Positions 1-8,326 of a DNA stretch of 23,427 nt are shown here, piece after piece. The DNA lies in the IMG/VR virus record IMGVR_UViG_3300031578_000340, positions 1-23,427 of that record. One strand, given 5' to 3'. Positions within the stretch are counted from its first letter, which is position 1. Each line of letters begins with the position of its first letter. Below the pieces are notes generated by a model. The model did no database searches. It worked only from the letters and a program-made list of their open reading frames with translations, and was not told the DNA's origin. Origin of the DNA: a virus. Both the position numbers and the translations under genes were made by a program.

Positions 1-101
1 ATTTAGTGACAGTTGCACATTATCATTACGATAGGCTATGGTATAATAAATTCTTTAAGAGAGTCCCCGCAGTCCTTATGTTCATTAACGTGTATATAGT
101 T

Positions 102-138
102 GAAGACTCCTGAGTACTATACTTCCTCAAGAGTCTTC
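102..138 (-). other. 13-bp stem hairpin downstream of the TS-like gene
   Basis: On the minus strand GAAGACTCTTGAG (138-126) pairs with CTCAGGAGTCTTC (114-102). This is a 13-bp stem with one T-G wobble and an 11-nt loop. It begins 43 nt past the stop of the thymidylate-synthase-like gene. No T-run follows, so it is not a standard intrinsic terminator; it could be a 3'-end stabilising hairpin or a weak terminator. The remaining bases 1-180 hold no ORF I can support. Confidence 0.5.
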
Positions 139-709: not shown

Positions 710-1891
710 TCAATTAGATATAGTATAATTAATTAAATTAAATAAAGAAAACCTTTCGCTTAAACTCTTTTCGATATCCCTTCGAATTCCCTCGACGAAA
801 TACAAACTATCGTGAACAGACAAACATCCTTCATCTACATATTGATTACAAACATTTATAAATATATCTGACTCTAACTTTTGAAGTGTCAACCAGATTT
901 CTTCATTCCTTTTCTTTTCTTTTATTAATTCATAAACATCAGGAAAATAATCCTGCATTAATAATTGAGCACTATTAGTTCCTCTATTATCTTTATATAA
1001 ATAAGAGAAGAATAACTTCTTAACAAAGATCCTTGACTCTTCTTTAGAATGATATTCAAACCCTCCCCACTTTTCTATTAACCAATCATATAAATCTTGT
1101 TGAGTAACTAAATCATAAAAACGTTTTACTTCTCTATTATCAGGATTCTCTTTTAATAATATAGAAGATAATAGATAAGGTTGAGAAGATTTAAGATCAA
1201 TATGTAATAGAGACTCTCCTTTATATGTACAGAATTCTCTTAATTCTTTCTTCATTATATTAAATGATGTAAAGATTCTTCCTGTTCTTATATCACTTTT
1301 AACTATGATCCTATCTTTATTATAGATAGTTGATATCTCTCTTACAGTTCTAAGAAACCTTTCACCTGTGTATTGTCTTGCAAATTGTTCTGCTTTAACT
1401 AAATCAATATCTAAATCAGATATAGTATTATAATGTTGTAATAGAATAGGATCAGAAGGGAGAGTATAATTCTTATTAATAATATTATAAGTCTTTTCTG
1501 ATATTTCACAGAATTGAAATTCTATTTCTTTATCTATAAGTTTAGAGATAAACTCTTGAGTATACCCATATGATTTACAATAGTTGTTTCCTTGATAATT
1601 AGAATAAGATGTAGAGGTTATTATACTTTTAGACTCACATATTTTAACTAATTCAACAAATTTCCATTTTTGTTTTCCATTAGGTCCATAAGTACCAAAC
1701 CATTTTCTTATATCACGAGGAAGTTCAATTAAATTATTTTCAGAGGAATGTTTTTCTAATAGATAAAATAGATGTAAGAAATCCTCTCTTTTTAAAGAAT
1801 CAGAATAATAATCCTTTAATAATTCATCTATTAAAGTGATAAAACTTTGTGTAAAGTATAAACCATATTTCATATAGGTATTTTTTTTCAT
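710..1891 (-). CDS. Minimal family-A DNA polymerase-like palm protein
   Basis: The protein is 393 residues long. Its C-terminal half carries three motifs in the order and spacing of family A polymerases. IDLKSSQPYLL (D232, SQP 236-238) resembles motif A (DYSQIELR). RIFVKKLFFSYLY (R287, K291, Y297) resembles motif B (RxxxKxxxFGxxYG). LSVHDSLYF (H360, D361) resembles motif C (VHDE). TGRIFTSF at 203-210 precedes motif A as the TGR segment does in T7-type enzymes, and E340 in QKLESDI is a likely further conserved position. No 3'-5' exonuclease domain is visible; the N-terminal 200 residues are unassigned. The expected role is template-directed nucleotide addition in phage or plasmid-like replication, which is inference from motifs. 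The ATG at 1891 sits 16 nt after the stop of a leader peptide; M7 is an alternative start. Expression is probably controlled by the structured leader. Confidence 0.6.
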   Translation of the reverse strand: MKKNTYMKYGLYFTQSFITLIDELLKDYYSDSLKREDFLHLFYLLEKHSSENNLIELPRDIRKWFGTYGPNGKQKWKFVELVKICESKSIITSTSYSNYQGNNYCKSYGYTQEFISKLIDKEIEFQFCEISEKTYNIINKNYTLPSDPILLQHYNTISDLDIDLVKAEQFARQYTGERFLRTVREISTIYNKDRIIVKSDIRTGRIFTSFNIMKKELREFCTYKGESLLHIDLKSSQPYLLSSILLKENPDNREVKRFYDLVTQQDLYDWLIEKWGGFEYHSKEESRIFVKKLFFSYLYKDNRGTNSAQLLMQDYFPDVYELIKEKKRNEEIWLTLQKLESDIFINVCNQYVDEGCLSVHDSLYFVEGIRRDIEKSLSERFSLFNLINYTISN

Positions 1892-2081
1892 TAGTGAAAC
1901 AGTTATTTTAAAGTCTTCTACTCCAGTATTTCAATTGCTGTTTCACGACCAATCTCCATACTGAAGCTTTAGACTTATTCCTTTTAATCATAAACCCTCC
2001 TTTAGTCTCTTCCGTGCAAAAAGATTCTAAAGGAGGGGGTTTTCTGAAACAATTAACAAACTATCTTTATATCGCACGGAA
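1892..2081 (-). promoter_or_regulatory. Structured mRNA leader with SD-sequestering stem and two crossing (pseudoknot) pairings
   Basis: All pairings are read on the minus strand. Stem S1: CCCTCCTTTAG (2037-2027) with CTAAAGGAGGG (2005-1995), 11 bp perfect, burying the SD of the leader peptide. TTCCGTGC (2081-2074) is complementary to GCACGGAA (2017-2010) in the S1 loop, giving an H-type pseudoknot. Stem S2: AAGTCT (1976-1971) with AGACTT (1916-1911). Stem S3: CTTCAGTAT (1966-1958) with ATACTGGAG (1929-1921), 9 bp with one G-U. Stem S4: GTGAAACAG (1946-1938) with CTGTTTCAC (1902-1894), 9 bp perfect. S4 crosses S2 and S3 and covers bases 3 to 11 upstream of the polymerase ATG. The layout fits translational attenuation; function is inferred. 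Confidence 0.6.
1908..1991 (-). CDS. 27-residue basic leader peptide upstream of the polymerase-like gene
   Basis: The ATG at 1991-1989 is preceded by AAAGGAGG with a 4-nt spacer. This is the only strong SD I noticed in a window where starts otherwise lack one. The peptide begins MIKRNKSKASVW and ends KYWSRRL, with nine Lys/Arg residues and two Trp. It stops at 1908-1910, 16 nt before the polymerase-like ATG. Its codons for V-K-Q (GTG AAA CAG) form one arm of a 9-bp pairing with the region just before the polymerase start. Ribosomes translating this peptide would therefore open that block. Peptide coding is supported by SD plus ATG plus position, not by homology. Confidence 0.5.
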   Translation of the reverse strand: MIKRNKSKASVWRLVVKQQLKYWSRRL

Positions 2082-2142
2082 TATATTTTCTTTTTATATA
2101 TATCTCTGTCTTTCAAGAAAAAAAGTGCAGTTAATGTAAGAG

Positions 2143-3287: not shown

Positions 3288-3658
3288 TACTTTTTAGCTA
3301 TCCAATCTTCAAGAACTTTAACTACTTTAGTACGTCCATATATAGTTGCATATCGTAAAGCCCATTTATCTTTTGCTTGTACATCTGCTCCAGCATCTAA
3401 TAAAAGTTTAACTACTTTAGTATGTCCTCCTATACTTGCTACTAATAAAGCAGCATCACCTTCTGCGTGCACATCTGCTCCAGCTTCAAGTAAAATTTTA
3501 ATTATTTCAGTATATCCAGTATTACTTGCCTCTCGTAAAGGAGCATCATTATCTGCGTGCACATCTGCTCCTGTCTCAAGTAGGGTTTTAACCTGTTCAA
3601 TATATCCATAATGACAGGCTGCTAATAATAACATTTTTGATAATTTTGTTGTTTTCAT
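3287..3658 (-). CDS. Ankyrin-repeat protein with a 30-residue period
   Basis: Of 123 residues nearly all are ankyrin repeats. GADV-type turns begin at residues 31, 61 and 91, and each is followed by ALR/LLVAS then GxTxxxKxLL. The period is 30 rather than the usual 33, because the GxTPLH turn is shortened to APLR, ALL or ALR. This is the form familiar from Mimivirus ankyrin proteins. There is no signal peptide or catalytic domain, so a protein-binding role, perhaps against a host factor, is inferred. At DNA level the three repeats are clearly related, including a recurring ACATCTGCTCC on the plus strand. The start has the shared leader, whose AACTAAAA overlaps the TAA of the nuclease-like gene. 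Confidence 0.85.
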   Translation of the reverse strand: MKTTKLSKMLLLAACHYGYIEQVKTLLETGADVHADNDAPLREASNTGYTEIIKILLEAGADVHAEGDAALLVASIGGHTKVVKLLLDAGADVQAKDKWALRYATIYGRTKVVKVLEDWIAKK

Positions 3659-4612: not shown

Positions 4613-6283
4613 TCATCTGGTGATCTTCTGAATGACATTATTATCAAATGATAATGTACTCTTTTCTTTACTATATTTCATTACATCAAACCAACCAAAA
4701 TAAAATTCAGTATAATATCGTTTTGTCCAAGAAGTTAAAAGTACTTTAATAGGTAAAGGATTGTTAAAAGCAAATAACTCAATATATACAACCTTATCTT
4801 TATTAAAAGCATTTGTATTTCTAACATAACCTTCCCATTTTTTAGTATATTTCTTTAAGTCCTCAATGTCATAATTATCTACATTATAAATGAGTATTTT
4901 GTCAACATACTTTTGAGTATATTCATATTGTGTATCATAATTTGTTTCTTCTTTACCTGCTTTTAATATATCTATAACATTTACATCTTTATATTTCTTA
5001 ATAAAATCTTGTATTTGTTTTATACTATTTTCATTACTTATTAACTCATTTCTTAAAGTAGTTTGTTCTTTATTAAATTCAACCTCTGAAATATATCCAT
5101 TTTTATACATATTATTAACTCTCTTTTTCTTAGCATTAATAATACCTACTTCACCTAAAAAATATTCAAGTTGTTTATTTTTCTCTTCAATATTGATTAA
5201 TTTTTTTTGTTCATCCTTAAAATAACTTTGAGTTTCTACACTTAGACTTTGGTTAAATAGACTTTTATATAAAATATCATCAAGAAATTTACTATCAAAT
5301 TGTCCTCCATCACATTTAACATTCATTGATTTACTATTACAAAAATAAAATGATGGTTGCCCAGGATAACGAGTTTCAGTTCTTGTTTGATATAAATAAC
5401 CACAATTCCCACATAGTATTTTTGTTTTAAAAAGATAATGATATTTTGTTCTTGCTCTATAGCCTATTCGATTTTTTAAAATATCTTGTGCTTTATTCCA
5501 TCTTTCATTGTCAATAATTTGAGGAACTTTTACAATTTCACCTTTGTAATTCCTTTCACCTTTGTAGATAGTATTTCTTAAAATTATATTAATCGAATTA
5601 TTTTTCCAGAGTATTTTAAAGGAATCTCCATTAGCCATCTCTCTCCTTTTTCCAAACGTTGTATGTCTTGTAGGAATACCTTTACTATTAAGATTTATAG
5701 CAATTCTTCTTATTGGAACACCATTAACATAATTATCAAAAATTTCATTAATTATCTTAGATTCCTTTTCATTAATTTGTAAATATCCATCCTTATCAGC
5801 ACTAAAACCATAAGGTAAAAAACAATATCCTGCTCTTTTACCTTTCATTACTGATGAATACCTTCCTCTTGCCATTCTTCCTAATGTTGTATCTCTTTCC
5901 AGTTCAGCAATTGATGATAACAAACTTATAAGAAGTTTATTTGAAGCATCATCAGATAAGGTGTTTAGATTCTCTTTCTTAAAATAAATGTTAATATTCT
6001 TTTTAGAAAAGAAATTTATTTCATTAAGAGTTTGTGAAGTGGATCTCCCAAGTCTTGATAATTCCCAGATTAGAATTTGATTTATGTCATTTTTAATAAC
6101 ATATTCTTTCATTTTATCATACTCTACTCTATCGGCATTGGGATCGTAACCAGAAATGCTCTCACCATAGATTGCCTTAACATCAAAATCATTTGCTTTA
6201 GCATATCTAAGTAAATCTTCTTTTTGGGTTTCAAAATTTTGTTGAACTGTTGAAACTCTACTGTAAATGACACACTTTTTCAT
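4613..6283 (-). CDS. Large serine recombinase, probable phage integrase
   Basis: With the ATG at 6283 the protein is 556 residues. The N-terminal resolvase domain has YSRVST (R9, catalytic S11) and ELSRLGRS (R77, R80), all expected active-site residues. A recombinase domain follows, then a zinc ribbon (CGNCGY, with a later FYFCNS and VKCDGG) and a lysine/glutamate-rich coiled coil. This is the architecture of large serine integrases that join attP to attB without needing long homology. An upstream in-frame ATG at 6346 would add 21 Phe/Tyr/Ile-rich residues before the resolvase fold; I reject it because family members start at the KKCVIYSRVS strand. The gene sits between two terminators, so it is likely its own transcription unit. 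Confidence 0.93.
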   Translation of the reverse strand: MKKCVIYSRVSTVQQNFETQKEDLLRYAKANDFDVKAIYGESISGYDPNADRVEYDKMKEYVIKNDINQILIWELSRLGRSTSQTLNEINFFSKKNINIYFKKENLNTLSDDASNKLLISLLSSIAELERDTTLGRMARGRYSSVMKGKRAGYCFLPYGFSADKDGYLQINEKESKIINEIFDNYVNGVPIRRIAINLNSKGIPTRHTTFGKRREMANGDSFKILWKNNSINIILRNTIYKGERNYKGEIVKVPQIIDNERWNKAQDILKNRIGYRARTKYHYLFKTKILCGNCGYLYQTRTETRYPGQPSFYFCNSKSMNVKCDGGQFDSKFLDDILYKSLFNQSLSVETQSYFKDEQKKLINIEEKNKQLEYFLGEVGIINAKKKRVNNMYKNGYISEVEFNKEQTTLRNELISNENSIKQIQDFIKKYKDVNVIDILKAGKEETNYDTQYEYTQKYVDKILIYNVDNYDIEDLKKYTKKWEGYVRNTNAFNKDKVVYIELFAFNNPLPIKVLLTSWTKRYYTEFYFGWFDVMKYSKEKSTLSFDNNVIQKITR

Positions 6284-6851: not shown

Positions 6852-8111
6852 TTAATTAAACAAATATTTCATTTTTAAAGGAACACTATAATCAGATAAT
6901 CTTAAATAATCATCAATATGTTCCTTTAATACTAAATAAAAAATATAATATGTTACTTTATTATATACCTTAGGAACAAGAACAGAATCAAATAAAGGAA
7001 TAAAAGGTATATCACATTTCTTCATTCTTTTCCAAACATCTCTCATAATGTTAACTATTCTTAATCTAATTACAAGAGGAACTATTTTATAGTAGGCTTG
7101 TCCTCTTTTAAATGCTGGATGATTTTCGCTTATTTTTAACCTAACATCAGATTTTAAAATTTTAGGTTTAATGTTTGAAGCAAACCCTAAAAAATAATCT
7201 ATGTCACTTCTTCCACTTTTAATTTGATATAATTTATCATATGCTTTAGGCCATTTCTTTTGAAATTGTTCTATATGATCATATCCAAAAATAGCTGAAT
7301 AAAAGGTTTTATCATATATTTCATCAAATATGTCATAATCTTTTTCTGATTTAAATAAACTTTTTGAGTATTTACCTTTTCTATAATAACTTGAAAAATC
7401 ATTCTTTCCTATAGTTTTTAATAATTGATCCGCAAGTACTAAAGGAATACTATCATAAAATCCTACTTCCCAAGGATCTACAATACTTGTATAATGTAAA
7501 AGTTCTCTATATTTTGTAAACAAACTTAAATGTTCTCCAGCAAATTTATTATTATCAAATCCAAATCTATTTATATAATAATCTTTTAATGTAGGATCAC
7601 CGTATTCATCAATTACATTTAATATAATTGGATTATAACTATATCTTTCTCTTACATCTTGAGGTAAATCTATTTTAATATATTTATATATAGAATTGTA
7701 ATGATTCATATATTGTCCATTTAATAGATGTAGATGCTCATCAATCCACTTTGTTAATAAATCATCATATAAAATTACCTCATATAAATCCAATAACTTT
7801 CTATTAACTTTATATAAATGGGCATCTTGTTTTTCTGGTTTTGTAAGTCCAGTAGCAATATAATATTGAGTATTCTTATGTGTTGAAGGTAAAAGATCTA
7901 TATATTTATTGTCAATTAAGAATTCAATAATTTTATTTTTATATTTGCTTTCTAATCGTTTAATGAATGAAGCTGGAATATAACTTACATCATACCCTCC
8001 TCTACTAACTACAAATAAATATCCTATAACACCAACACATAATTTAAAAAACGGATTTTGTATTTCCTTGAAATCCAAGATATTATAGTTTTTGTACTTA
8101 ATTTTACTCAT
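6852..8111 (-). CDS. Degenerate polymerase-like palm protein, 419 residues
   Basis: I know no named family. Its plan follows that of the 393-residue polymerase-like protein: an N-terminal segment ending in LYKVNRKLL, then VGFYDSIPLVLADQL (216-230) in the place of motif A, KTFYSAIFG (268-276) in the place of motif B, and IPLFDSVLV (371-379) in the place of motif C. A helix RIVNIMRDVWKRM precedes motif C as in the other protein. The motif A Asp position is Gly or shifted, the TGR segment is lost and the motif C His is Phe. D375 is kept. Catalysis is therefore doubtful; a binding, regulatory or immunity-like role is possible. It has its own host-type promoter and is preceded by a terminator, like a moron gene expressed from the prophage. 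Confidence 0.6.
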   Translation of the reverse strand: MSKIKYKNYNILDFKEIQNPFFKLCVGVIGYLFVVSRGGYDVSYIPASFIKRLESKYKNKIIEFLIDNKYIDLLPSTHKNTQYYIATGLTKPEKQDAHLYKVNRKLLDLYEVILYDDLLTKWIDEHLHLLNGQYMNHYNSIYKYIKIDLPQDVRERYSYNPIILNVIDEYGDPTLKDYYINRFGFDNNKFAGEHLSLFTKYRELLHYTSIVDPWEVGFYDSIPLVLADQLLKTIGKNDFSSYYRKGKYSKSLFKSEKDYDIFDEIYDKTFYSAIFGYDHIEQFQKKWPKAYDKLYQIKSGRSDIDYFLGFASNIKPKILKSDVRLKISENHPAFKRGQAYYKIVPLVIRLRIVNIMRDVWKRMKKCDIPFIPLFDSVLVPKVYNKVTYYIFYLVLKEHIDDYLRLSDYSVPLKMKYLFN

Positions 8112-8259: not shown

Positions 8260-8297
8260 TAATTTAAAATAAAAAGATAAGGTTTCCTATAAACAAA

Positions 8298-8326
8298 AAA
8301 ATAGGGGCTTAAATTGCCCCTATTTT
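8298..8326 (-). terminator. Intrinsic terminator after the 98-residue gene
   Basis: AAAATAGGGGC (8298-8308) and GCCCCTATTTT (8316-8326) are perfect 11-bp arms with a 7-nt loop, and on the minus strand the stem runs into seven T residues. It closes the transcript coming from the virion and lysis side and insulates the promoter of the 419-residue gene. Confidence 0.85.

Follow-up and report, generated by a model that had tools for sequence, protein, structure and literature searches.

In the satellite phage P4, replication genes are silenced in lysogens by the CI RNA, which terminates their transcription and pairs with a target on either side of CI, seqA upstream and seqC downstream (PMC4825925). 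P1 encodes an antisense RNA, C4, that controls an antirepressor operon and not replication genes (PMC8198154), while gene 32 of T4 carries a pseudoknot upstream of its start (PMC3014915). The leader described here lies before a polymerase-like gene in IMG/VR record IMGVR_UViG_3300031578_000340, a virus record that was analysed over its whole length of 23,427 bases (referred to below as the window). With confidence only slightly better than even, we consider this leader to be a member of a group of P4-CI-like RNA control elements that precede phage genes, most often replication genes; the architecture is directly observed, while we infer that it functions as RNA, where this RNA starts and that it is involved in immunity.

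The window contains minus-strand head and tail genes of a tailed phage, as well as a large serine integrase. About 30 starts were listed for it, all with AT-rich upstream regions lacking an SD-like motif of at least four bases. Furthermore, a perfect Bacteroidota-type promoter, TTTG-N19-TATATTTG, is found at positions 8147-8117, directly 5' of gene 8111. Taken together, these two features suggest a Bacteroidota host, and the phage probably infects such bacteria; the related phages studied here are likewise judged to be Bacteroidota-type temperate phages. Gene 8111 itself encodes a protein of 419 aa, which has no Pfam match above the cut-off and no PHROG match and is absent from the relatives searched. 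A 140-aa protein encoded at 181-603 partially matches thymidylate synthase (Pfam E 7.9e-7, PHROG E 2.8e-11); a thymidylate synthase-like gene is also located 3' of the polymerase in G002 and G003 and was found in L169. No CI-type repressor was detected among the small ORFs of the window that were tested.

The protein encoded behind the leader has no Pfam match and only a weak PHROG match. A first structure model, made from two sequences, was discarded (pLDDT 36), while a model with six homologues has a pLDDT of 70. A fold search of the latter against the PDB matches Pol I/apPOL, Aquifex Pol I and Taq (best E 9e-4, probability 1.0, TM about 0.35). The description of the gene as polymerase-like in an earlier, sequence-only reading of this DNA thus agrees with the model, which points to a family A DNA polymerase fold at a low TM-score. 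Conserved stretches are GR..(T/S)SFN..K.ELR, DLKSSQ (DLKSSQP), R..K...F and HDS. Distant relatives of the polymerase (22-28% identity) are encoded by the unannotated huge phages LR756511, LR756504 and LR745206, of about 600 kb, and a second, truncated polymerase C-terminus is present at a contig end in G032 (20-106, minus strand; profile 370-398, E 4.5e-6).

The five arm pairs that the sequence-only reading had named in the leader are all present on the minus strand, between positions 2081 and 1894 (Table 1), and they fold better than expected by chance. The z-score of the minimum free energy of the leader is -3.8, with none of 300 shuffles being as strong, and the stretch 1908-2097, which covers most of the leader, ranks third of 1550 among the 190-nt windows of the contig. 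As had been proposed, the 11-bp stem S1 hides the SD-like sequence AAAGGAGG, the mean pairing probability of which is 0.998. The element TTCCGTGC (2081-2074) is able to pair with GCACGGAA (2017-2010) within the S1 loop, with 8 Watson-Crick pairs, or 10 if G-U pairs are included; when the flanks were shuffled 500 times, 2 shuffles attained the score of this loop pairing, UUCCGUGC/GCACGGAA. Codons of the 27-codon frame, GTGAAACAG (1946-1938), form 9 Watson-Crick pairs with CTGTTTCAC (1902-1894), just before the polymerase ATG. This start-region pairing, GUGAAACAG/CUGUUUCAC, ranks second among the approximately 30 starts and was not reached in any of 3000 shuffles, so that this part of the earlier reading is borne out as well. 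A further pairing, which had not been stressed before, is formed between UUGUUUCA (2052-2045) and this strand of the peptide frame, 1946-1938; its UGUUUCA core pairing was reached in 26 of 3000 shuffles. The leader consists of two sets, one made up of R1a and the S1 loop and the other of R1b, the stem A loop and R2b.

Predicted helix energies are -14.4 kcal/mol for UUCCGUGCGA/UUGCACGGAA and -10.8 kcal/mol for GUGAAACAG/CUGUUUCAC. The loop pairings cross the stems in a pseudoknot-like manner, as the sequence-only reading had supposed, and the loop lengths permit both pseudoknots. RNAfold predicts seven additional pairs that extend S1 into its own loop; full pairing of TTCCGTGC would therefore have to open some of these pairs, and the two structures compete in part.

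Table 1. Coordinates of the leader features in the window, of the downstream gene and of the elements in related phages
Feature	Genome	Position	Strand	Remarks
Promoter-like box GATATATATA	window	2095..2104	-	20 nt 5' of R1a (counted from first base of ATATATA to first base of R1a)
R1a UUCCGUGC	window	2074..2081	-	seqA-like; complements S1 loop; probably near RNA 5' end
R1b UUGUUUCAG	window	2044..2052	-	seqA-like, second set; core of 7 Watson-Crick pairs, UGUUUCA
S1 5' arm CCCUCCUUUAG	window	2027..2037	-	11 Watson-Crick bp with 2005-1995
Anti-R1a GCACGGAA	window	2010..2017	-	S1 loop, seqB-like
S1 3' arm CUAAAGGAGGG	window	1995..2005	-	contains SD-like AAAGGAGG at 2003-1996
27-codon ORF MIKRNKSKASVWRLVVKQQLKYWSRRL	window	1908..1991	-	ATG 1991, TAA 1910-1908; downstream of SD-like sequence
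Stem A 5' arm GCUUCAGUAU	window	1958..1967	-	10 bp including two G-U with 1929-1920
Anti-R b GUGAAACAG	window	1938..1946	-	stem A loop; seqB-like, second set
Stem A 3' arm AUACUGGAGU	window	1920..1929	-	10 bp including two G-U
R2b CUGUUUCAC	window	1894..1902	-	-11 to -3 of polymerase ATG; seqC-like
Polymerase-like gene	window	710..1891	-	393 aa; model resembles family A DNA polymerases in fold (low TM-score); ATG at 1891
Element	window	1995-2037	-	precedes family A polymerase
Elements	G030 (L179)	7290-7320; 6066-6108		from R1-hairpin-gene scan
Element	L019	17009-17049		precedes DnaD-like helicase loader
Elements	L020	8889-8921; 8275-8304		both precede small genes, function unassigned
Element	L021	1190-1232		precedes replication initiation protein match
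Element	L149/L177	11230-11270		precedes DnaD-like helicase loader

It had been proposed that the polymerase start becomes accessible when ribosomes translate the SD-led peptide of 27 codons, comparable to the action of RepY on RepZ in IncI plasmids. In a Bacteroidota host, a variant of this model could be imagined in which it is chiefly ribosomes without bS21 that use the buried SD, and indeed in Flavobacterium strong SDs are favoured only by such ribosomes (PMC9976891). The strong SD is, as had been remarked, out of place in a contig that otherwise lacks strong SDs, and it is buried in S1; the 27-codon frame spans the start-pairing strand and its stop codon is located 16 nt 5' of the polymerase ATG. 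However, a G+C-rich hairpin arm can by itself give rise to an SD-like purine run, and the predicted interaction with a Bacteroidota-type 16S tail amounts to -12.5 kcal/mol, as compared to below -13 for rpsU (PMC9976891). SD and peptide are missing in every relative examined. No SD-led peptide is found in the corresponding place in L012, L013, L169, L173, L019, L020, L021 or L149, and the peptide has no tblastn match among the loci searched. L012 and L013 have a 16-bp hairpin in the corresponding position but no SD-led peptide, and loss of the peptide frame in close relatives is an outcome that the sequence-only reading had itself named as refuting its model; L169 and L173 have leaders with a hairpin and without an SD-led peptide, while L175 has no leader, its upstream ORF ending 4 nt 5' of the polymerase. 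Control of the polymerase start by the peptide is therefore improbable. The strong SD may be a local addition in the phage of the window, where it could still matter. The peptide ends with CTT TAA (1911-1908), and the polymerase frame, at +1, is open from there on to the polymerase ATG; a +1 frameshift at CTT-TAA that fuses peptide and polymerase is thus possible as far as the frames go, but, resting on a single sequence, it is not claimed.

Relatives were gathered in two ways, based on the terminase and on the polymerase, and they form a small and partly fragmentary set. The polymerase-based searches yielded only L012/L013, L169, L173, L175 and the three huge-phage relatives. The nearest of these, L012 and L013, share 65% polymerase identity with the window, and their leaders are identical to each other. 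No close homologue with an alignable leader was found in polymerase-based scans of viral_contigs, in genome scans or by tblastn against phages and plasmids, such as a column-by-column analysis of covariation would require. Searches of the leader against phages with blastn gave chance matches only, and no Rfam family reaches its threshold in the window or in the relatives.

What the relatives have in common is an architecture. Eight elements in six genomes of the family, with unrelated sequences, share the same order of parts: a promoter-like ATATATA box, R1, a hairpin with an anti-R1 loop, and a gene. Hairpins were listed in the relatives if they had at least 10 Watson-Crick pairs. With thresholds fixed only after the first examples had been seen, a loop pairing score of at least 11 is attained by 7 of 34 family hairpins, as compared to 0.40 expected from shuffled flanks, and a score of at least 13 by 5 of 34, with 0.05 expected. 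Control loci, taken from 119 unspecific matches of a loose DNA hairpin pattern over viral_contigs, some on contigs that differ from the family in base composition, contain 2 of 81 hairpins with a score of at least 11 (2.05 expected). A separate scan for the orientation R1-hairpin-gene retrieved eight elements, spread over six contigs of the family. When the whole set was shuffled five times, the scan yielded 2 matches in total; other control viral loci yielded 9 matches in 3.3 times more sequence, and five Flavobacterium/Cellulophaga phage records yielded no element.

Replication genes are located downstream of five of the eight elements, that of the window included. Two of them are family A polymerases (window and L169/L179), another two, in L149 (E 2.5e-13) and L019 (E 1.9e-4), are DnaD-like helicase loaders, and the gene in L021 matches a replication initiation protein (E 1.7e-7). 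The other three elements, two in L020 and one in L179, are followed by small genes that have no family match or are too short to test. The same design thus also occurs before small non-replication genes (L020 8889-8921 and 8275-8304, L179 6066-6108): one of these genes is lipoprotein-like and resembles that at 2315-2530 of the window, two are without assignment, and one of the three elements has 13 perfect R1/loop pairs.

In each element R1 is different, even where two elements occur in one genome (L020, L179). Such private sequences argue against a common binding protein, and therefore against a DNA-level element in which R1, the loop and R2 serve, in direct and inverted orientation, as operators or origin iterons. 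Iteron-like repeats do adjoin the replication genes, but one binding protein gives no explanation for two different R sequences in a genome, nor do operators need the loop of a perfect hairpin; we regard this reading as very improbable. On the other hand, an own R sequence for each element, even with two per genome, is to be expected for a specificity of the immunity type.

Some elements contain a second copy of R1, R2, directly 5' of the start codon. This is the case in L019 (TGACCTTGCA, reached in 2 of 2000 spacer shuffles), in L021 (ACTGGGCA, 21 of 2000) and in set b of the window, where UGUUUCA, GUGAAACAG in the stem A loop and CUGUUUCAC before the ATG follow each other in the same order as in L019 and L021. 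Elements other than these three have no second downstream copy of R1. In L173 an 11-bp pairing involves the start region, and in six of the eight elements the hairpin is only 24-38 nt away from the ATG. These observations are also in line with a leader that acts purely in cis, as a 5' switch or mRNA stabiliser: R1 would pair with the loop of the same molecule, and R1 and R2 would compete and thus set the access to the start codon, with neither a trans-acting RNA nor immunity. The same architecture data fit this main rival. However, unrelated R sequences in every element fit better with specificity between molecules, and in L169 the loop is 7 nt long and fully paired with R1, which is strained in cis and normal for a kissing target. 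A purely cis-acting switch therefore seems rather unlikely, and a P4-CI-like module is favoured.

Alternatively, the hairpin could be an intrinsic terminator, with pairing of R1 to the nascent loop tuning read-through without any RNA in trans. The hairpin of L169 at 3317-3347 passes a terminator scan, and after that of L020 at 8275-8304 there are seven T in a row. In contrast, the window hairpin is followed only by TTTATG and fails the scan, so that S1 was rejected as an intrinsic terminator; L012 and L173 fail it as well, and a clean T run is missing in most elements. Attenuation of this kind has, in our estimation, a low probability.

Each of the eight elements has ATATATA at a distance of 11-28 nt upstream of R1. 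Of the 8 hairpins with loop pairing, 7 have a box within 130 nt upstream; of the 35 hairpins without it, 2 do (Fisher 8.5e-6). In the family, 34 of 140 ORFs have the consensus of the box, TGAATATATA, on their upstream side, most frequently 26-38 nt from the start; in three unrelated Bacteroidota phage records that were checked, no ORF start has it nearby. Since it stands before so many ORFs of the family, it is probably a phage promoter, or else an mRNA signal; with a promoter, R1 would lie no more than about 16 nt from where the RNA begins. The box, which occurs for example at L021 3634, 5709 and 6993 and also in L176 and L020, is mostly in gene orientation and at times directly follows terminator T runs. 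A canonical Bacteroidota promoter (TTTG..TAnnTTTG) does not occur close upstream of the leader and was discarded as a candidate; the family box GATATATA is a better one.

L012 and L013 deviate from this pattern. In the 309-nt stretch of L012 that leads up to the polymerase start, a 20-bp long-range stem (G-U allowed) comes right after a box-like AATATATAATAAAA, and there is also a hairpin with a palindromic loop core, UACGUA. This leader can be regarded as a variant of the element, or as a degenerate one. The loop pairing in L012/L013 is not significant (120 of 500 shuffles), and this weighs against a P4-CI-like module, as do the leaderless polymerase of L175, the absence of an Rfam match, the three elements that precede small genes of unassigned function and the fact that R2 is clear in only two relatives and in set b of the window.

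On the other side, an upstream target, a complementary loop, a downstream target and a replication gene constitute the layout of P4, and this is why a P4-CI-like module is favoured. The large serine integrase of the window, together with the lack of a CI-type repressor among its tested small ORFs, also speaks for such a module. Its operation could be imagined as follows. The promoter-like box would start an RNA whose first bases are R1; a hairpin of arbitrary stem sequence would come next, exposing anti-R1 in its loop, and in some members a second copy, R2, would follow just 5' of the start codon. By analogy with P4, the hairpin part would probably be released as a small RNA, through termination or processing. 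Through its loop, this small RNA would then bind R1 and R2 on newly made leader transcripts, both in cis and in trans, and so keep the replication gene off, and a lysogen would thereby repel phages with the same R type. In the window, it is set b (R1b, stem A loop and R2b) that touches the polymerase start region.

A more far-reaching idea, which we consider doubtful, is that Bacteroidota phages possess sequence-free RNA immunity modules: the replication gene of each phage would be guarded by a leader in which a private recognition word is repeated in the 5' end, the loop and the start region. A few bases would set the immunity group, and the logic of P4 CI would have originated a second time and not by descent. 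Should the leaders indeed be P4-CI-like modules, phages that probably infect Bacteroidota, where repressor systems are poorly known, would use RNA to control their replication genes as P4 does. Furthermore, the recognition word could be read straight from the sequence, and the rule that R1 matches the loop would predict which phages exclude one another. Homology searches miss RNAs of this kind, in which complementarity persists although the bases themselves are free to change; a search by architecture is needed to find them.

Several known systems resemble these leaders in part. The operators of T4 gene 43 and gene 32 are structured leaders of phage replication genes too, but they are bound by the gene's own protein at a defined loop or pseudoknot sequence, whereas the elements described here have private sequences and varied downstream genes. 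With RepZ of the IncI/IncB plasmids, to which the sequence-only reading had likened the leader, there is a leader RNA of a replication gene, a pairing of a loop with the start region and, in the window only, a short peptide frame. The similarity of the start-region pairing stands; control by a peptide is not supported, the peptide not being conserved, and the RepZ design has no R1 close to where the RNA probably begins. The Rfam model PK-repZ (RF01087) gives 11.4 bits for the leader, against a gathering score of 44 (E 4.6). C4 of P1 is also a small antisense RNA of phage immunity, and the operon under its control is the one whose leader encodes it, but that is an antirepressor operon, in contrast to the replication genes found here, and no Rfam match connects the two. 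P4 CI differs in several respects: Rfam detects no sequence similarity, and no common descent is claimed; a family A polymerase or a DnaD-like loader is encoded downstream instead of the alpha protein; most members lack a second target; and the host is probably a member of the Bacteroidota. In common with P4, there is a target upstream and a hairpin with a complementary loop in the leader of a replication operon, a second copy of the target downstream in three cases, and a temperate element that, for the window, has no protein repressor among the ORFs tested. The loop-pairing architecture common to the relatives therefore points to P4 CI with its seqA and seqC, and not to the RepY-RepZ system of IncI plasmids.
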